64,000 bases of DNA from Motiliproteus sp. GTDB lineage: Bacteria > Pseudomonadota > Gammaproteobacteria > Pseudomonadales > Balneatricaceae. Shown one piece after another: positions 25,351 through 36,009 of the stretch (its first letter is position 1; each line of letters starts with the position of its first letter). The stretch is taken from contig JAPHRD010000004.1 in the NCBI GenBank assembly GCA_026196225.1, positions 1 through 64,000 of the forward strand, in the 5' to 3' direction. The notes beneath the pieces are model-generated. The model was not told the DNA's origin and did not search any database. It saw nothing but the letters and a program-made list of their open reading frames with translations. The position numbers and the translations under genes were made by a program.

Positions 25351-26274
25351 ATGATAGAGTTCGATGCGCGGGTATTGATCGATAATCTGCCAGCCTTTAA
25401 TGGCTCGGCAGAAAGCAACTCAGAGATTCAGCAGTATCGCCGCTACTATGGTATCGATTTCCAGGATCTGGACTGCAACCAGCAGTTGGGATCACTATCA
25501 GCAGCGGGTTTCAATATTGCCGTCCAACGCTTTACTCCCGCAGAAAGCCGGGGTCAGGCTCTGCTAGTCCATGGTTACCACGACCACCATGCGCTCTACG
25601 GCCACCTGATACATTTTCTATTGCAGCAACAGCTCACCGTCACCAGTTTTGACCTTCCGGGCCACGGCCTCTCGTCTGGCGAACGCGGTACTATTGAGGA
25701 TTTCAATCAGTATCAGCAGGTGCTGGCGGAAATCCTGACAGCGCTGCCAGATATCCCTGGTCCGCTGCACTGGATCGGCCAAAGCACCGGTGCAGCTATC
25801 CTCAACCAATACCTGTTAAGCCAGCAACCGGAGGTATCCGGCCAGATCGTTATGCTGGCCCCGCTGATATGCCCTGCTCGCTGGCCATGGGTAAAGCTGG
25901 CCCACAGCGTCCTCAAGCCTTGGGCAACTGCGATTCCTCGGCAGTTTACCGAGAACAGTCACGATACGGATTTTTTGGAATTTCTTAAAAACCGCGATCC
26001 CTTGCAGGGTAGAACCATCACCGTCGAGTGGGTATCTGCGTTGCGGCGCTGGATACCGCAATTTCTGGAACTTCCCGCGAGCCAAGACTACGCACCTTTA
26101 ATGATTCAGGGAAAACAGGACGACACCGTCGATTGGCGCTTTAATCTGCCGACACTAGAGAAGAAGTTCCCCAAGGCAAAAACACTACTGCTACCGGATG
26201 GCCGCCACCACCTGGCCAACGAAAGCACAACAATTCGCCAACACTATCTGGATTGGCTAAAACCGCAGCTCTAA
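25351..26274 (+). CDS. Alpha/beta hydrolase (serine aminopeptidase / monoacylglycerol lipase type)
   Basis: LLVHGYHDHHALYGHL, FDLPGHGLSSGERG, WIGQSTGAAI; start at ATG 25351. Confidence 0.85.
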   Translation: MIEFDARVLIDNLPAFNGSAESNSEIQQYRRYYGIDFQDLDCNQQLGSLSAAGFNIAVQRFTPAESRGQALLVHGYHDHHALYGHLIHFLLQQQLTVTSFDLPGHGLSSGERGTIEDFNQYQQVLAEILTALPDIPGPLHWIGQSTGAAILNQYLLSQQPEVSGQIVMLAPLICPARWPWVKLAHSVLKPWATAIPRQFTENSHDTDFLEFLKNRDPLQGRTITVEWVSALRRWIPQFLELPASQDYAPLMIQGKQDDTVDWRFNLPTLEKKFPKAKTLLLPDGRHHLANESTTIRQHYLDWLKPQL

Positions 26275-27566
26275 GCGGCTCCAGCGGGAGCCACCACCGG
26301 CGTGATAATCTTAAAGCGGATCCCTTCACCAACTTTGCTGGTGAGTTGGATACTTCCCCCCAGGCGATGGCTGATCAAATTGTGAATAATAGCCATGCCC
26401 AAACCGGTCCCGCCCCGTTCACGATTGGTGGTAAAAAAGGGTTCAAATAGTCGCTGTGAAGCCTCTTCGGTAAGGCCGCGGCCATGATCTTGGTATTCGA
26501 TATCCAATTCACTGCCGTTACGCTTGATGGCGATATCAATCTTGCCCCCCGGTTGCTCCCGATATCCATGAACCAACGAATTAACCATCAGATTCATCAG
26601 GATCTGGCTGAAATCGCCAGGGAAGCTATCCATCTCAATATTGTCCGGAACACTGAGATTGACCTGGCATTTACCACGCTTTAAACGGGGAGACATCGCG
26701 GCGATCGTATCTTCTACCAGCGACAGCATATTGAAATCACGCCGCTCCTCGTGGGACTGATCCACTGCGACCTTTTTAAAGCGCCCCACCATATCGGCAC
26801 TGCGTGTCAGATTGGTGTTCAGCAGCTCAAAGCCGGACCGCAGCTGCTCCATGTTGTGAATAAAATTCTGCTTGTTGACCACCCCCGACTCCACCGCATC
26901 CAACACCTCGTCCACCGTATCCTTGAGGTTTGAGGCCGCCAGCACACAGTTCCCCAGAGGCGTATTAATTTCATGGGCCACCCCCGCCACCATGCTACCC
27001 AGAGCTGCCAGTTTTTCGGCCTGGATCAATTGCTCTTGGGCCTGCTTGGTCCTTTCCAGGGATTGCTCGAGGTCTGCTGTTCGCTCTTTTACCCGGCTCT
27101 CAAGTTTCCGGTTTAACGCCACAATCTCTTCCTGAGCAACGGTAAGATCGTTGACCTTAGTCTGCAGGTACTCGTTAACACGGTGATAATCCTTGGCGCT
27201 GGCGGTTAAATCCCGCTCACTACGATTGAACATCCGCTTGAGGACAGTGTTTTCATCGTCAAAATTGATGCCCCGCTGCAGCGCATCCAACAGCGGCCCC
27301 ATCAACTGAGCCAGATCCGATAGGTAGGATTCAGGTAGCTGCAGCAGCCAGAAACTGGGACTTAAGGTTTGTATCTTTAGGGTCTCGCCGATATGGACCA
27401 CGCAACCATGAATGCGCGACAGATAGTGTTTGTAGTCCACTATCATCTGCTGGGGATTATCACAGAGCACCACCACGGGGCCACCCAGCAGGTGCTTTCG
27501 CGACAGTTCCACCGTTTCAAAACCAAGTGGTGGTGGATTGAGGGTAGTGATCAATCTAGATTTCAT
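26271..27566 (-). CDS. Sensor histidine kinase (soluble-looking, coiled-coil plus HisKA/HATPase)
   Basis: LAALGSMVAGVAHEINTPLGN H-box; GTGLGMAIIHNLISHRLGGSI G-box. Confidence 0.9.
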   Translation of the reverse strand: MKSRLITTLNPPPLGFETVELSRKHLLGGPVVVLCDNPQQMIVDYKHYLSRIHGCVVHIGETLKIQTLSPSFWLLQLPESYLSDLAQLMGPLLDALQRGINFDDENTVLKRMFNRSERDLTASAKDYHRVNEYLQTKVNDLTVAQEEIVALNRKLESRVKERTADLEQSLERTKQAQEQLIQAEKLAALGSMVAGVAHEINTPLGNCVLAASNLKDTVDEVLDAVESGVVNKQNFIHNMEQLRSGFELLNTNLTRSADMVGRFKKVAVDQSHEERRDFNMLSLVEDTIAAMSPRLKRGKCQVNLSVPDNIEMDSFPGDFSQILMNLMVNSLVHGYREQPGGKIDIAIKRNGSELDIEYQDHGRGLTEEASQRLFEPFFTTNRERGGTGLGMAIIHNLISHRLGGSIQLTSKVGEGIRFKIITPVVAPAGAA

Positions 27567-28717
27567 TCGCCCAGCAGCAGCAATACATAGGTCATGTTAT
27601 GGAACAGGTTATCACTGTAACCATCATCAATGGGCAAGGGGGCAATCTCTCCAAAGGAGGGAAAACCTGCCAGGGGCAAATCCACCCAGTCTCCGCTGAC
27701 AATCTCGGTTACTTCCTTCTCTACCTTATCGCCGAGCAGCCACTTGCGACCCGCACAGCTAACAATCAGCGCAGCTTGCGGATCAAAATCCTGTTGGCGG
27801 CAATGATCGGCGATAGAACCCACCTCCTGCAGCAATTGCTCCGGCTCAGCCAAGCACACCTGCACCCGTTCGCCCTGCTCGATACCACCGTACAAGCCCA
27901 CCGAGCGCTCGGAGATGGAGAAATCGGGAACGATCGCCCGCAATCGTTTTACCGCATCATCATCTTTGCTGAGAATACTGAGAGAAGTCACCCCGCGATC
28001 CGATTGCAGCACCGGTTTGCCCGTCTCCCTCTCAATAAAATCCATTGCCGACAGACCGTCGATAGAGAGGATATTGGCGCCATCGGACTTCTCGATAACT
28101 CCCGGCTTGCCCACCGCAGAAATAGAGTTACCAACATGAATGGCAAATTTCAGATCACCCCGCGCGGACAACAGTACCAGGGAATCTTTCAGGCAGGTGT
28201 CACCCACATAGATCGCGCAGTCGCTCATCTGATTATCGTCGGCAGCAAAGCCGCCAATCACCGGTATCTTGATCTGGTGACGCAGCACCTTTTCCATCTC
28301 AGAGGCATCGGTGCGGAAATCAGAAAACAGGAACATCAGCTGCGGATCTTGATTGTCGTTGAGCCAGCGAATCTGAGACCAGGCCTGTTGCAGACTGGCT
28401 TCAGGATCAATATGGACACCACCGATCGAAGTCACCTGCCAGTCGACCTTGCCACCGCTATCGAGCCCCATGGCTACGCAGCCGACATCTCCGCACTGAC
28501 GGTGGTGATAGTAGCCGTCACCGGTACTACCCACCAGAATCACATCGGAGCGATCCAAGCCTTCGTGGAGCCCTTCCAACAATTCACTGGATCGACCGTA
28601 ATGGACGGTAGAAAACACAAAAACCACTTCTGGATGCAATTCATGCAATCCCTCACCTAACTCTAACCCTGCTCGAAACGGGTCGGACGACTGGGAGGCA
28701 ATGGACAATGCGCGCAT
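27563..28717 (-). CDS. FIST domain signal transduction protein
   Basis: VFVFSTVHYGRSSELLEGL..VGSTGDGYYHH, C-terminal AALIVSCAGRKWLLGDKVEKEV.. AGFPSFGEIAP. Confidence 0.88.
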   Translation of the reverse strand: MRALSIASQSSDPFRAGLELGEGLHELHPEVVFVFSTVHYGRSSELLEGLHEGLDRSDVILVGSTGDGYYHHRQCGDVGCVAMGLDSGGKVDWQVTSIGGVHIDPEASLQQAWSQIRWLNDNQDPQLMFLFSDFRTDASEMEKVLRHQIKIPVIGGFAADDNQMSDCAIYVGDTCLKDSLVLLSARGDLKFAIHVGNSISAVGKPGVIEKSDGANILSIDGLSAMDFIERETGKPVLQSDRGVTSLSILSKDDDAVKRLRAIVPDFSISERSVGLYGGIEQGERVQVCLAEPEQLLQEVGSIADHCRQQDFDPQAALIVSCAGRKWLLGDKVEKEVTEIVSGDWVDLPLAGFPSFGEIAPLPIDDGYSDNLFHNMTYVLLLLGE

Positions 28718-29821: not shown

Positions 29822-30454
29822 TTAAACCACACGCCATCCATTGGAGATGGCCACATGAACCAGCTCTGCGCTGGTACGAACGCCCAGCTTCTGCTTAATA
29901 GTGGTTGCCCGGTTAGCAACAGTCTTGGCGCTGATGCCCAGGCGACCGGCAATCTGTTGATTATTCAATCCCTGGACCAGTAACTTAAAAATTTCACGTT
30001 CCCGCGGAGCCAACTGATCGATGGCCCCCTCTTCAATTCCACTGCCTGGATCACTATCCAGCATCGCTGCTAATTTGGGTTCCAGATAGCGCTCCCCGGC
30101 CTGAATCGCTTTAACCGCCTCGACCATCACCTCTGGCGCGCTGGTTTTGGAGATGTAGCCCAGGGCTCCCGCTTCGAAGGCACGCTGAACCATAGCGACC
30201 TCCTCGTACATGCTGAACATGAGGATTCGGGCTTGAGGTTGACTGGCTATTATCTGACGCGCCACCTCAATACCATTGATATCAGGCATATTGATATCGA
30301 GAATCATAATGTCAGGTTGTTCGCGATGATACTGCAGCGCCGCCTCGGTACCATTGGCTGCTTCGACAATGATGACGGGAGAGAACATGGCCGAAAGCAA
30401 ACTACCGTAGCCTTGGCGAACCACCCCATGGTCATCGGCCAGTAGTATTTTCAT
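29822..30454 (-). CDS. LuxR/NarL-family response regulator
   Basis: MKILLADDHGVVRQGYG REC domain; HTH LAPREREIFKLLVQGLNNQQIAGRLGISAKTVANRATTIKQKLG. Confidence 0.93.
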   Translation of the reverse strand: MKILLADDHGVVRQGYGSLLSAMFSPVIIVEAANGTEAALQYHREQPDIMILDINMPDINGIEVARQIIASQPQARILMFSMYEEVAMVQRAFEAGALGYISKTSAPEVMVEAVKAIQAGERYLEPKLAAMLDSDPGSGIEEGAIDQLAPREREIFKLLVQGLNNQQIAGRLGISAKTVANRATTIKQKLGVRTSAELVHVAISNGWRVV

Positions 30455-31724
30455 CGTGCTCTCCATCATCTTGGGCTAGCGGCAGTATCAACTCGATGTT
30501 GACGCCGCCTTCTGTCGTAGAGCCAATAGTACATTGGCCTCCTAAAAGACGGCAACGCTCACGGATAGAGCGCAGTCCCATTCCTCTCACTATTTTTTCC
30601 GGCAACCCACACCCGTCATCGCTGATACTCATGCGCCAATGGTCTGCTTCGGTGCCTGCCCAAATGGACACCTGTGTCGCATCGGCATGGCGGGCGGTGT
30701 TATTCAACGCCTCCTGCAACAATCGATAAAGGTGCGAAGCTTGCTCGTTGTCGAATTGAGCAAAGCCACGACAAACTAGCTGGCACTGGATTCCTGTAGT
30801 GCGCTGAAAACGTTGCAATAACTCTTCCACGGCTGCTTCCAGACCTAGTTGTTCCAGTACCACGGGGTAGAGATCCTCCACCAGTTGCCGGCAACTTTGC
30901 TGAACCGCATCACAGCTGGCAATAATCTGCTCGCTGATCGCTTTTAGTTGATCGTCCTGTTGCTGCTTGAAAGGAATTACGTAGGCTTGAGCACGAATAC
31001 CGGTAATGTGCTGGCCAAGATCGTCATGAAGCTCTCTAGCCAGGGCGGCCCGCTCCTTTTCCTGAATCTGCATCAGGGTCTCTGTAAGGTGCTGGTTATC
31101 CGATTCCGCGCTTTCCAACGCCGCTGCCATCTGATTGAAGTGGCTGGATAGGCGGTCCACTTCAGGTACGGAATAGCGTTTAAGTCGGGCCCGGTATTCG
31201 CCTTGCTGGATGCGATCAAGCGCCTGTAGAAAGTGCCCAACCGGACGCATCCCGTAACTGACCCCAATATAAATAGCCAGGTTGGATAGCAGCGCACTGC
31301 CCAGGAACAGCCAGAACAGCTGGGTGGTTGAATCCCAGATCTCATCGATCTCATCGGAACCATCGGGCACAAAGGTGATCATTCGGCCATCGCGGGTAGC
31401 AATCGTCCGCGAGTGCAGATCCGAGTCCTGCTCTTTGCTAAACAGATCCCGAAACCAGTCGGGCGATTCATAGCTCTGCAATTCAGTGTCAGCGTCTGAG
31501 TTGTCGATAATTCGAATATGGCGCAGGTTTTCACTCACTAGCTGGATCAATTGCTGAGGATGGTCAACATAGGACTCAATGAGTGCGTCCATCATATGCA
31601 TCACCCCCTGCTGCTCTCGGAGGATGTCGGTCTCAGCCTGTTTCAAAATGGCATAAAGACTTACAGCCAATGCGATAGCAAAGGCGATACTAACCATCAG
31701 CAAAATTCGTAATACCGCGTTCAA
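30432..31724 (-). CDS. NarX/MoxY-type sensor histidine kinase
   Basis: Two TMs, HAMP, HisKA_3 ALARELHDDLGQHITGIRAQ; periplasmic segment (RHIRIID..PDWFRDLF..DEIDEIWDSTTQLFW) resembles LapD/MoxY N-terminal domains. Confidence 0.88.
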   Translation of the reverse strand: MNAVLRILLMVSIAFAIALAVSLYAILKQAETDILREQQGVMHMMDALIESYVDHPQQLIQLVSENLRHIRIIDNSDADTELQSYESPDWFRDLFSKEQDSDLHSRTIATRDGRMITFVPDGSDEIDEIWDSTTQLFWLFLGSALLSNLAIYIGVSYGMRPVGHFLQALDRIQQGEYRARLKRYSVPEVDRLSSHFNQMAAALESAESDNQHLTETLMQIQEKERAALARELHDDLGQHITGIRAQAYVIPFKQQQDDQLKAISEQIIASCDAVQQSCRQLVEDLYPVVLEQLGLEAAVEELLQRFQRTTGIQCQLVCRGFAQFDNEQASHLYRLLQEALNNTARHADATQVSIWAGTEADHWRMSISDDGCGLPEKIVRGMGLRSIRERCRLLGGQCTIGSTTEGGVNIELILPLAQDDGEHDENTTGR

Positions 31725-31744
31725 TGGATCACCTTCGAGTTAGC

Positions 31745-32797
31745 TCAGCGTAATTTGAAATGGACCGGAACCTCGAGCCAGGCATCACGACCGCTTCCGT
31801 CCACCACCGCTGGTTTGAATTTCCATTTAGCCGCCGCTTCCAGGGCAGATTTATCCAAACGATCAAAGCCGCTGCTGGACTTCACCATCAGATTTTTGAT
31901 CACCCCGGCGCTGTCCAGAAGAATACGCAGCCAGACGGTTCCCTGTTCACCCCGGCGTTTTGACCTCGCCGGATAGCGTGGCTGCGCGGGGGGTTGTAAG
32001 TAGTCTGGCTTACTTAGGATGAGAGGTGCCGTTGAAGCGGAAGGACTGGTGGTTTTTTTAGCGACTTCCAGCCCGGACACATTCTTCGAAAACCGCTTAT
32101 CGGTTACTTTTTTAGCGGTATTGGGAGTGGCGGCCGGCACTGGCTTAGGCACCGTTTTTACCTTAACTACGGGATTCTTTGGACGCGGTTTGACCACCTT
32201 TTTTACAGGCTGCTGTACCCGTTCTTGCGAAACCGGTTTACTGACTTTAGCAGCAACTTTCTTAGCAATTGTTTTCTTGGTAATTGGTTTTTTGTTAACA
32301 AGAACCTTTTTATTCTCTTCTTTTTTAATCGTTTTCTTAACCGTCGTTTGCTTCACCTTTGGAACCGGGACAACCTTGGCTGGCTTTAGCGGTTGTGGCG
32401 CCGGTGGAATAGCAGTGCGGGCCTCTGTGTTGACGGTTTTGACCGCTTTTGAAGGCTTGGGGGGGATTATAGACAACGGTTTAGCTGGCGGAACAACCTT
32501 GGTTGCCGGCTCAGGGATAACAGGGAGTGGTAGAGGAAGCGGCTCCACCACCTTGGATACTTCGGGTGGCGGAGCCGGGGGCACCGGATTAACAGTAGAA
32601 GAAGGAACAGGAGCAGGCGCTTGGTAGGCCTGCAATTGTATCGATATCGTACTTTCGGTAGGTAACGGCTGGCTCCACACCGGGCGAGGCAGTTCGTTAT
32701 CCATCACCCAGAGGAATAAAAGCAAATGCGCCAGCACTGAGAATAACAGTGCCGGACGCAATGGCTGGATCAGTGAGGAGGTCGCAACCGCGCTCAT
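31745..32797 (-). CDS. TonB-family energy transducer
   Basis: N-terminal TM, very long Pro/Lys/Val linker, C-terminal PRYPARSKRRGEQGTVWLRILLDSAGVI..SGFDRLDKSALEAAAKWKFKPA. Confidence 0.92.
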   Translation of the reverse strand: MSAVATSSLIQPLRPALLFSVLAHLLLFLWVMDNELPRPVWSQPLPTESTISIQLQAYQAPAPVPSSTVNPVPPAPPPEVSKVVEPLPLPLPVIPEPATKVVPPAKPLSIIPPKPSKAVKTVNTEARTAIPPAPQPLKPAKVVPVPKVKQTTVKKTIKKEENKKVLVNKKPITKKTIAKKVAAKVSKPVSQERVQQPVKKVVKPRPKNPVVKVKTVPKPVPAATPNTAKKVTDKRFSKNVSGLEVAKKTTSPSASTAPLILSKPDYLQPPAQPRYPARSKRRGEQGTVWLRILLDSAGVIKNLMVKSSSGFDRLDKSALEAAAKWKFKPAVVDGSGRDAWLEVPVHFKLR

Positions 32798-32807
32798 AGG
32801 GTTCCCA

Positions 32808-35132
32808 TCAGAACTTCATACGCACGCCAGCGGAGACGGTACGTGGCGCGCCGGGACCTACGAAGCGATCATCGTCGAAGCCGGGGTAGGCATCGCTTAG
32901 TACTTCATCCGCTTCACCGTAAACACCGAAGGTTTCATAGTCTTTGTCGAACAGGTTACTGACCCGACCGAACACTTCGATATTCTGGGTAGCCTGGTAC
33001 TTGGCACGCAGGTTAACCAGGGTGTAACCATCCAGTTTTTCGTTCTCGTTGGCTTCGTCACCGCGGAAGAACTGGCTGCCTCGGTAATTGACCTCGGTAC
33101 CCACGGACAGCTTATTGGTCGCCTGCCACTGGGCCGCTACCTTAAAGATATGCTCCGGCAGTCCTGGAATGCGATCGCCGTCGCTGACTTGGCGGTTGCC
33201 ACCCAGTGGGTTATTAGGGCTGAAGGAGACGAATGGCGTTTCAAAGGTCGCTTTCATCCAGGTGTAACCGGCTGACAGTCGAACGCTGCTCAGCTGAGCC
33301 TGCAGTTCCAATTCGGCACCGATACGGCGGGTTTTACCCACGTTGGTAAAGTAACCTTCAGAAGGCAAACCACCGGCCTGCTGGAAGATAATGTCGTCAT
33401 GGTTGGTGGTGTGGAACAGACCCGCATGCCAGCGAATATCTGAGCCACCACGCAAACCGGCTTCAAAGCTCTTGGCAACCACCTGCTCCAGCGGGGGATC
33501 GGAAACAAAGCCGTTAGGCAGCTTACAAGGGTCGGCAGGGTCAGCACAGCTCAGTTCTGCTGGCGTTGGCGCCCGTGAAGATTCGCTATAGCTGGCGTAG
33601 AGCGCCAGGTCGGGACGGATGCTGTAGGTCAGGCCCGCCATGGGGTTGATACGGTCATAGGTATGGGAACCGTCCAGAGAACCGGCACCATCTTCGATCA
33701 GGTCATTCATCTTGATACGGGTGCGGTTATAACGGGCGCCGAAGGTCAGATCCAAGGCATCGTTGACCGTCACGGTATCGCTAAAGTAGAGACCAAAATG
33801 CCTAACACTGGTGTCCAGGCGGACGCGGGATTCAGCATCGTACAGACCAACTCCTTCGGTTCCACGATCGTCAGCGGGCGTATCATTGCGCAGCTCTGCA
33901 AACTCAGTGTCAGACTGAAAACTGATATCGGCATAGTCGTAGCTAACGCCGGCGATCAACTGGTTTTCACGGCCAGCCAGGGTGTTAAGGAAGGTCGACT
34001 GCAGGGCAAAACCAGCACTCTCTTGCTTGGTTTCGGAGGTGTTCACGGTACCGTCGATATCATCCGGATCGAGGGTCGGATCGATATCTTCCAGGGTATC
34101 GTCATCGTCAAAGCCAAGGAATTCCACCGGTTCGGAAGGATCTCCATCTTCACAGAGGGTTTCCTCACCGAGAATCGTACACTCCTCGTAGTCACTATCA
34201 TCGCCGTTCAGGGTGGTGATGGTGTTCTTGCGGTAGTAGACGTTACCTGCCAGCTGAACGTTATCATTGACCCAGTGATCACCATCCAGGGCTAAGAAAT
34301 TAAGCTGAGTTTCAGTGCGGTCAGGATAGGTGTAGATCGTTTCTCGACCCTCAATATCCATCAGGTCAAAGGGTACCGCGCCGTTACCCACCAGGGTATT
34401 GTCGTTGGTAGCGGCAGTCAGATTGAGACTGCTGTCGTCACCACGCCAGCTGAACACACCCAGCAGTTGGCGGACGTCACTAGGAGACTGATCGCGCCAG
34501 CCATCTTCTTCCACATAGTTACCGATCACGTAGTAACCGAACTCGCCGTTGTTGTTACCGCTCTGGAACTGGGTTTTAAGAAAACCATCTTCTCCAAAAG
34601 CCAGTTCGATATCGTTTTCCTGATGGGTAAAACCGTTCTTCAGGCGTAGCGACAATGCGCCACCCAGAGTGTTTTGACCAAACAAAGGATTGGATCCGGA
34701 AAACAGGTTGACCGAATCAAGGGAATCTTCGGGCAGCAGGTCCCAGTTGACGGTATCACCGAAAGGCTCGTTAAAACGGACGCCATTCACGTACACCGAC
34801 AGGCCTTGAGGCAGCCCCAGCAATGGTGAAGCGGTAAAACCACGGTACTGAACATCAGGCTGATAGGGATTGTTAACCGCATCGTTGACGGTGACGCTGC
34901 TGAAGTTAAAGCGCAGATGCTCAGCCAGGTTCAACGCCTGACCGTCGGTGATCGCCTCACCACTGACACTCTGGACACGCGCTGGAACCTTGCTGGCTTC
35001 GACACCAACGCCGTGGACGGGAGTTTGCCCCACCACCGTCACGCCATCCAAAACCGTAGCAGCCTGAGCCGGCAAACCCGCCGCCATCATCGAAAGCACT
35101 AAGGTGCGAACTGGGAACTGTAACTTCTTCAT
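32808..35132 (-). CDS. TonB-dependent outer-membrane receptor
   Basis: Signal peptide, plug domain (VQYRGFTASPLLGLPQGLSVYVNGVRFNEPFGDTVNWDLLPE), beta-barrel, C-terminal aromatic MKF; RBS AGGTAGG upstream. Confidence 0.95.
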   Translation of the reverse strand: MKKLQFPVRTLVLSMMAAGLPAQAATVLDGVTVVGQTPVHGVGVEASKVPARVQSVSGEAITDGQALNLAEHLRFNFSSVTVNDAVNNPYQPDVQYRGFTASPLLGLPQGLSVYVNGVRFNEPFGDTVNWDLLPEDSLDSVNLFSGSNPLFGQNTLGGALSLRLKNGFTHQENDIELAFGEDGFLKTQFQSGNNNGEFGYYVIGNYVEEDGWRDQSPSDVRQLLGVFSWRGDDSSLNLTAATNDNTLVGNGAVPFDLMDIEGRETIYTYPDRTETQLNFLALDGDHWVNDNVQLAGNVYYRKNTITTLNGDDSDYEECTILGEETLCEDGDPSEPVEFLGFDDDDTLEDIDPTLDPDDIDGTVNTSETKQESAGFALQSTFLNTLAGRENQLIAGVSYDYADISFQSDTEFAELRNDTPADDRGTEGVGLYDAESRVRLDTSVRHFGLYFSDTVTVNDALDLTFGARYNRTRIKMNDLIEDGAGSLDGSHTYDRINPMAGLTYSIRPDLALYASYSESSRAPTPAELSCADPADPCKLPNGFVSDPPLEQVVAKSFEAGLRGGSDIRWHAGLFHTTNHDDIIFQQAGGLPSEGYFTNVGKTRRIGAELELQAQLSSVRLSAGYTWMKATFETPFVSFSPNNPLGGNRQVSDGDRIPGLPEHIFKVAAQWQATNKLSVGTEVNYRGSQFFRGDEANENEKLDGYTLVNLRAKYQATQNIEVFGRVSNLFDKDYETFGVYGEADEVLSDAYPGFDDDRFVGPGAPRTVSAGVRMKF

Positions 35133-35261
35133 GACCTACCTGTTATCCGATTAAATCTAATCTGGGAAAATCTACTTATGGATATTTTGCAGATTTATGA
35201 CAATCAGGACTGTTCCCAAGGGGTCGCGTGCAGAGACTGCTTTAGCACTAGTCTGGGAGGA

Positions 35262-35278
35262 TAGGGAAAAATTCCCTA
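35262..35278. promoter_or_regulatory. 17-bp interrupted palindrome upstream of the TonB receptor gene
   Basis: TAGGGAA-AAA-TTCCCTA, 7-bp perfect arms, about 130 bp upstream of the receptor ATG. Confidence 0.5.
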
Positions 35279-35320
35279 ATTATTCGGGATGTCAGCCGAA
35301 AGACAAAAGAAATGGGAAAA

Positions 35321-35536
35321 CTAGTTCCGTGAACAGCAGTTTTTCTGGGACTGAACCGGGGGGCAAGGCACCGTACCGTAGGAGCAGAATACACAGCAGT
35401 CACCCGCTAATGGCTTTAGCAGCTGGTGGCACTGCGTACACTGGTAAAACCAGATGCAGGCGTCTTCGGGCATCCTTTTTTGTTTTTGGTGACCGCAACC
35501 GGGGCAGGTCAGTATAGATTCTAAAATCAACGCCAT
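35321..35536 (-). CDS. GDCCVxC-motif Cys-rich small protein
   Basis: MALILESILTCPGCGHQKQKRMPEDACIWFYQCTQCHQLLKPLAGDCCVFCSYGTVPCPP; start trimmed from 35680 to 35536. Confidence 0.85.
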   Translation of the reverse strand: MALILESILTCPGCGHQKQKRMPEDACIWFYQCTQCHQLLKPLAGDCCVFCSYGTVPCPPVQSQKNCCSRN

Positions 35537-35556
35537 ACCGACCTCCCCCATTGTGG

Positions 35557-36009
35557 CTACTTGGATGCAGCCGCTTTGGTAATCCCCGCCAGCGCTTTTG
35601 TCACCTTGGCGAATACCGGCCCGCAGCCTTCGACCTGATGACGCTGCTGTAGATAACCGGGATCGTTGTAACTGATCCAAGCATTACCCTCTGCATCTGC
35701 CCATATCAGCGCTTTTTGCGGCAAATCGATAGCGATACTTTGCTGACACTTCATCAACGGGCTGCCTACCTTTGGATTGCCAAAGATAATCAGTTCGGTA
35801 TCGCGCAAGGTCACTCCTACCTTTGCGGCAGCTTCGGAATGTTTAATCCGGTTAAATACCGTCATGCCTTTGTTTTTCAGAATGCCTTCCAGTCGGTCTG
35901 CGGTTTTAACAACGCTGTGGTTGCTGGCCACATCAATCATACCGTCAGCCGCCATCAGGGGTGAAGAGGACAGCATAGTCATCGCCGCAATTGCTAAGAA
36001 CTTTTTCAT
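35557..36009 (-). CDS. DUF302 domain periplasmic protein
   Basis: Signal peptide then VKTADRLEGILKNKGMTVFNRIKHSEAA..LIIFGNPKVGSPLMKCQQSIAIDLPQKALIW. Confidence 0.9.
   Translation of the reverse strand: MKKFLAIAAMTMLSSSPLMAADGMIDVASNHSVVKTADRLEGILKNKGMTVFNRIKHSEAAAKVGVTLRDTELIIFGNPKVGSPLMKCQQSIAIDLPQKALIWADAEGNAWISYNDPGYLQQRHQVEGCGPVFAKVTKALAGITKAAASK

Follow-up and report, generated by a model that had tools for sequence, protein, structure and literature searches.

A LutH-like receptor, a TonB protein and a PedS2/PedR2-like switch as a candidate lanthanide acquisition and sensing unit in Motiliproteus sp.

In Methylorubrum extorquens, the receptor gene lutH (META1p1785) adjoins lanM (1786); lutH mutants lose lanthanum (La) uptake and La deposits, and La represses the lutH promoter (PMC7391723). 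PedS2/PedR2 is the rare-earth switch of Pseudomonas putida. Its kinase, PedS2, reportedly loses activity in the presence of La, suppressor mutations map to its periplasmic and HAMP regions, and its sensor is described as unlike LapD/MoxY (PMC6115532). P. putida has no LutH homologue, and its outer-membrane lanthanide route has been called unresolved (PMC12997753). In marine bacteria, 41 receptors that cluster with the lanthanide receptors of Methylobacteriaceae were counted earlier (PMC11996626). Here we analyzed a 64,000-nucleotide stretch of Motiliproteus sp. (positions 1 to 64,000 of contig JAPHRD010000004.1, assembly GCA_026196225.1; hereafter the window), in which a LutH-like receptor gene, a TonB gene and a PedS2/PedR2-like pair lie together (Table 1). 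The four genes probably work together in acquiring and sensing lanthanides, in the service of a lanthanide-type pyrroloquinoline quinone (PQQ)-dependent alcohol dehydrogenase (PQQ-ADH) encoded elsewhere in the genome.

The original prediction, made from the sequence of the window, had placed the receptor, TonB, kinase and regulator in co-directional order on the minus strand, and the open reading frames (ORFs) and Pfam matches bore this out. According to the ORF list, a 10-bp gap, a 20-bp gap and a 38-bp overlap separate or join the genes in that order. The regulator was correctly located, but its 5′ end had been set at an internal ATG (30454), and the ORF reaches 30469. Promoter and terminator scans across the four-gene region returned nothing exceeding shuffles, and a single weak sigma-70-like site lies upstream of the receptor at 35306-35279. 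The gene order suggests a single transcription unit with a presumed shared transcript. A TonB gene also lies directly 3′ of the orthologous receptor in four other loci (L040, L049, L050 and L051). Because the G+C content of the unit (53.4%) is close to that of the window (52.4%), composition gives no signal of horizontal acquisition, and we rejected acquisition on that measure.

Table 1. Genes of the receptor-TonB-switch unit and the stretch upstream of it, in window coordinates.
Feature	Position	Strand	Evidence
LutH-like TonB-dependent receptor, 774 aa	32808..35132	minus	Pfam Plug + TonB_dep_Rec barrel; clade support 100/100
TonB-family energy transducer, 350 aa	31745..32797	minus	TonB_C 2e-22; 10 bp 3′ of receptor
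PedS2-like membrane histidine kinase, 430 aa, TTG start	30432..31724	minus	HAMP + HisKA_3 + HATPase_c
PedR2-like LuxR/NarL-type response regulator	29822..30469	minus	Response_reg + GerE; overlaps kinase end by 38 bp
Non-coding stretch 5′ of receptor, presumed promoter region	35133..35320	minus	position; weak sigma-70-like site

The receptor matched the Plug (6.7e-13) and barrel (2.5e-48) families of Pfam, and its structure model matched the fold of TonB-dependent receptors. In a maximum-likelihood tree, it fell inside a fully supported 21-member clade that leaves out FhuA, FhuE, Fiu, FepA and BtuB as well as the other receptors of the genome that were tested. One additional Novosphingobium receptor, first grouped with the family, fell outside the clade in this tree. 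The separation ruled out identity as a siderophore or B12 receptor; the receptor groups instead with a LutH-type receptor linked to lanmodulin. That clade member, encoded on a plasmid of Methylobacterium nodulans, is 34% identical to the window receptor, and 3′ of its gene come those of a LuxR-type regulator and of a lanmodulin-kind protein of 134 residues, and then mox genes. The lanmodulin-kind protein has four EF-hands (DPDNDGTLD, DPDKDGTLD, DPDKDGTLD and NPDGDGTVD). Because the window receptor shares a clade of full support with a receptor beside lanmodulin and mox genes, we class it by sequence as LutH-like, with the M. nodulans receptor as the reference for the assignment in place of M. 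extorquens LutH.

PqqU (YncD) of Escherichia coli, which the original prediction had named for comparison with the receptor, is the nearest outgroup of the clade (support 95/90). PqqU/YncD also provides the closest solved structures (9c4o, 6v81), both by sequence and by fold, with 9c4o the best match in the fold search (TM 0.83 on target, 19% identity). These likenesses raise the alternative that the receptor imports PQQ as a PqqU-like scavenger and that the kinase and regulator sense PQQ or the status of PQQ enzymes, which would also suit relatives whose receptors directly adjoin pqqBCDE; bacteria that make PQQ can scavenge it too (PMC12124388). We consider PQQ import unlikely. All NCBIfam matches of the receptor were far under cut-off, the best being TonB-siderophor and PqqU, and the PqqU model (NF041535) gave 119 bits against a cut-off of 1200. 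The PqqU signature is Y/F/W99, R304 and R365 (Munder et al., PMC12124388). When we aligned the 21 clade members to E. coli PqqU (NP_415968.1), this signature was missing in 21/21, with L/Q/I/V at position 99, never R at 304, and F/Y at 365. On score and ligand residues together, we rejected membership in PqqU. The alignment was firm around position 99 and weaker around 304, where close relatives have a conserved Arg two residues away, so PQQ as the ligand is only disfavored. The lanmodulin neighbor within the clade and the genome's own pqq biosynthesis genes also speak against PQQ import.

Residues 306-365 of the receptor (window 34035-34220) form an acidic region with 38% D/E. It holds a DPDDIDGT stretch and a Cys pair, Alteromonas homologues have Asp runs there, and the region is a candidate cation-binding loop. 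The Cys529/Cys536 pair of the receptor is invariant across the family.

As the original prediction had stated, no quinoprotein dehydrogenase lies in the window. The genome does encode one, together with pqq genes, and the receptor groups away from siderophore and B12 receptors, as described above; the proposed tie between this locus and PQQ- or lanthanide-dependent alcohol oxidation stood on both counts that the original prediction had named as refuting it. The only PQQ-ADH over the family cut-off lies on contig C16 (788 bits), and its active site, HDGWDYDGVNE, has an Asp at +2 from the catalytic Asp (DYD). Calcium (Ca)-type paralogues in relatives read WDFSG at this position. We take the +2 Asp to be the lanthanide-type signature, following established XoxF/PedH knowledge, and by this residue the C16 enzyme is assigned to the lanthanide type. 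Beside it lie pedA1, pedA2 and pedB (TIGR03863, TIGR03866 and TIGR03864, all over their cut-offs) and a pedC assigned by similarity. No kinase/regulator pair is present in this ped cluster. On contig C30 are pqqB, pqqC, pqqE and a second pqqE-like gene, along with genes for a peptidase, an aldehyde dehydrogenase, and a NosP-like FIST protein accompanied by a kinase. Because the only high-scoring PQQ-ADH of the genome is of the lanthanide type, dependence on lanthanides may be strict and readily scored.

The receptor was carried by 21 of 392 genomes of the order, and a strong PQQ-ADH match was found in 21/21 of these, compared with 173/392 genomes overall (Fisher p = 1.7e-8). Counting by genus, which tempers relatedness among the 392 genomes, gave PQQ-ADH in 9/9 receptor genera versus 67/143 (p = 8e-4). 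PQQ-ADH was over the cut-off in all 14 receptor-bearing genomes that we looked at individually, and their top ADHs read W-D-[YF]-D-G, except in G066, where the best ADH is of the Ca type, and in Methylophilus, where the best ADH reads WDFAG and a DYD paralogue is present. The ADHs of Oceanobacter kriegii, a culturable carrier with receptor, kinase and regulator in the order of the window, include a Ca-type enzyme. Within the family, pqqC was found in 6/8 receptor genomes and 63/109 others, a difference that was not significant (p = 0.29), and we rejected an association of pqqC with the receptor at that level.

Gene neighborhoods link the receptors of many relatives to PQQ-dependent alcohol oxidation, as for LutH; in the window genome itself the unit and such genes are on separate contigs. 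The homologue adjoins pqqBCDE and a peptidase in Alteromonas and Neptuniibacter, and in Neptuniibacter UBA6509 (L039) it lies directly 3′ of pedB-pedA2-pedA1-pedC, as lutH clusters with the lut ABC genes. In Thiodiazotropha it adjoins an aldehyde dehydrogenase, with a PQQ-ADH ~10 kb away; in Burkholderia multivorans it adjoins a PQQ dehydrogenase near pqqABCDE; in Variovorax it comes after a PQQ dehydrogenase; and in Sphingobium and Novosphingobium homologues lie within ped clusters. Genome G310 (L205/L206) holds, within ~30 kb, a Ca-type ADH, PedR2, PedS2, a lanthanide-type ADH, pedA1A2BC, regulators, an ABC transporter, pqqECB, an aldehyde dehydrogenase, a porin and the receptor. The window unit differs from LutH in that it occupies a non-lut locus, with no lanM seen, and has a dedicated TonB and two-component system, and in that the sole high-scoring dehydrogenase of its genome is of the ped (ethanol) type. 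Four loci (L044, L039, L036 and L205) have a NitT/TauT-type ABC transporter, made up of binding protein, permease and ATPase, next to the receptor or to pqq genes, and in Glaciecola it overlaps the receptor gene; this transporter might carry a chelate or PQQ.

Iron chelates are the commonest cargo of TonB-dependent receptors. The window receptor might take up a ferric or cupric siderophore-like chelate; the kinase and regulator would then respond to iron, to copper or to the condition of the envelope, and the tie to quinoproteins would be indirect. On an Ideonella plasmid (L142, 6623-19906), a clade receptor is flanked on one side by a kinase/regulator pair and a cytochrome c peroxidase and on the other by genes for MbnP and methanobactin export, and it is possibly a copper-linked member of the clade. 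Also in favor of a chelate of this kind, MluA, a receptor for a lanthanide metallophore, groups among iron receptors (PMC11996626). Set against these points are the separation of the receptor from FhuA, FhuE, Fiu, FepA and BtuB in the tree and the presence of PQQ-ADH in every receptor genome. No chelate biosynthesis gene was found among the ORFs surrounding the four-gene unit, and within 300 bp 5′ of the receptor the best match to the Fur-box consensus was 10/19, no better than shuffles, so that we rejected Fur control. We regard uptake of an iron or copper chelate as improbable.

The original prediction noted that the periplasmic segment of the kinase resembles LapD/MoxY N-terminal domains. 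The kinase does resemble MoxYX/MxaY in its short periplasmic sensor, its HAMP domain, its LuxR-type partner and a P-x-W-F pattern. However, PF16448 (LapD_MoxY_N) had no match at E<=10 in the kinase or in its two Oceanobacter orthologues, and hhalign of the kinase sensor against the genome's own LapD sensor gave 3% probability, aligned over P-x-W-F. LapD_MoxY_N identity is therefore not supported, although the original prediction may have picked up a remote resemblance.

The syntenic counterpart of the pair is PedS2/PedR2, which it resembles in kinase architecture and regulator type. The kinase consists of a transmembrane (TM) helix, a short periplasmic domain, a second TM helix, HAMP, HisKA_3 and HATPase; in its structure model, two membrane-length helices flank the short domain. 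Foldseek with this model matched the transmitter alone, the model of the sensor being too uncertain. In the ped clusters of relatives (G065, G068, G026, G310 and others), the positions of pedS2 and pedR2, next to pedA1 and the PQQ-ADH genes, are taken by orthologues of the kinase and regulator. We made the comparison with PedS2 through genomes that have the P. putida ped gene order, in place of KT2440 PedS2: locus L214 reads nosP-nahK-erbR-pedC-B-A2-A1 / pedS2-pedR2 / pedE / pedH / aldehyde dehydrogenase, which equals the P. putida cluster as tabulated (PMC12997753). With the ped-slot kinase of G065 as the query, the window kinase was the sole full-length match in its genome (313 bits; next 124 and 111), and the two are reciprocal best matches. 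A conserved motif, D-x-x-D-E-[ILV]-x-E-V-W-[ED]-S, precedes the second membrane helix in most ped-linked kinases, and a metal-ligand role may be inferred for it.

Unlike PedS2/PedR2 of P. putida, which has no LutH homologue to accompany it, the pair adjoins a receptor in the window genome and in Oceanobacter. It could be argued that chance placed a LutH-like receptor and its TonB beside a PedS2/PedR2-like pair that works on its own, since Neptuniibacter, Thiodiazotropha, Burkholderia and Sphingobium have no such kinase beside the receptor and Oceanobacter has no TonB between receptor and kinase. Yet the receptor-kinase-regulator order recurs in Oceanobacter, which belongs to a different family, and in the kinase tree the window kinase groups with three receptor-adjacent kinases of the Oceanobacter family (100/99) and not with the kinases that occupy the ped slot in its own family. 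The window regulator shows 49-53% identity with the one encoded after the Oceanobacter receptor and 44-49% with ped-slot regulators. The kinase clade fits a shared, possibly transferred, receptor-linked lineage. Receptors also adjoin a kinase and/or a LuxR-type regulator in G359, M. nodulans and Ideonella, and we consider chance adjacency very unlikely. In G359 (L203, 9985-14620), the receptor is accompanied by a regulator and kinase that are more divergent (37% and 26% identity), which suggests that the pairing of receptor and two-component system arose more than once.

Several observations weigh against a unit dedicated to lanthanides. The window receptor is only 34% identical to the lanmodulin-linked receptor, and TonB-dependent receptors switch ligand easily. 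The unit lies on a different contig from the dehydrogenase, the ped ABC genes and the pqq genes. Most genomes of the family that have a lanthanide-type ADH, including five of the same genus, lack the receptor, which is therefore not obligatory. In G026 the receptor is located in a cobalamin/btuB region, G107 and G108 carry receptor and TonB only with nothing related beside them, the Ideonella receptor lies beside methanobactin-type copper genes, and in genus g77 (family f45) the receptor is away from ped genes.

We nevertheless favor lanthanide acquisition and sensing. The parts backed by data are the gene order, the LutH-like clade, the genomic linkage and co-occurrence, the lanthanide-type dehydrogenase and the orthology of the switch; the shared transcript, ligand, sensing mechanism and regulatory targets are what we infer. 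At the cell surface, a receptor of the LutH kind would bind a lanthanide, probably in chelated form, and the adjacent TonB would couple proton-motive force to import into the periplasm. There the metal would become available to the PQQ dehydrogenase of the DYD type, and PedA1A2BC, an ABC transporter, could move it on to the cytoplasm. The PedS2/PedR2-like pair would sense the metal state through the short periplasmic domain of the kinase and control transcription; its most likely targets are the receptor unit, which would be repressed under metal sufficiency, and the quinoprotein genes. Negative feedback of this kind on the receptor unit would fit the La repression of the lutH promoter described above.

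A bolder proposal, which we put forward tentatively, is that this is a portable lanthanide sense-and-import operon: a PedS2/PedR2-type switch would have left the ped cluster, joined a LutH-like receptor and its own TonB, and come to regulate outer-membrane lanthanide entry directly, providing the outer-membrane lanthanide route of ped-type ethanol-oxidizing marine gammaproteobacteria. To call the system undescribed, as the original prediction had suggested, was too strong, because both the receptor family and the switch had been described before; what is new is the joined receptor-TonB-switch unit, of which we found no description in the open-licence literature. LutH-like receptors near pqq, ped or PQQ-dehydrogenase genes in many lineages, here together with a switch and a TonB, offer a concrete candidate for outer-membrane lanthanide entry in ped-type non-methylotrophs.

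Two further gene pairs lie close to the unit. On the same strand, 5′ of the receptor (window 35321-36009), are genes for a DUF302 protein and a small Cys-rich protein (GDCCVFCSYG); the pair is not conserved alongside the unit in the loci examined. At window 26271-28717 are a FIST-domain protein and a cytoplasmic-type histidine kinase, which the original prediction had drawn on for its proposal. Membership in the unit was not supported: the FIST protein scored 33.8 bits against the NosP model NF041558 (cut-off 450), so we rejected NosP identity and left the pair out of the unit. The pqq region of the genome (L243:5115-7305) holds a kinase beside a NosP-like FIST protein, and the FIST-linked kinase of the window shares 34% identity with it; the window pair may therefore be a paralogue of the pqq-region pair.

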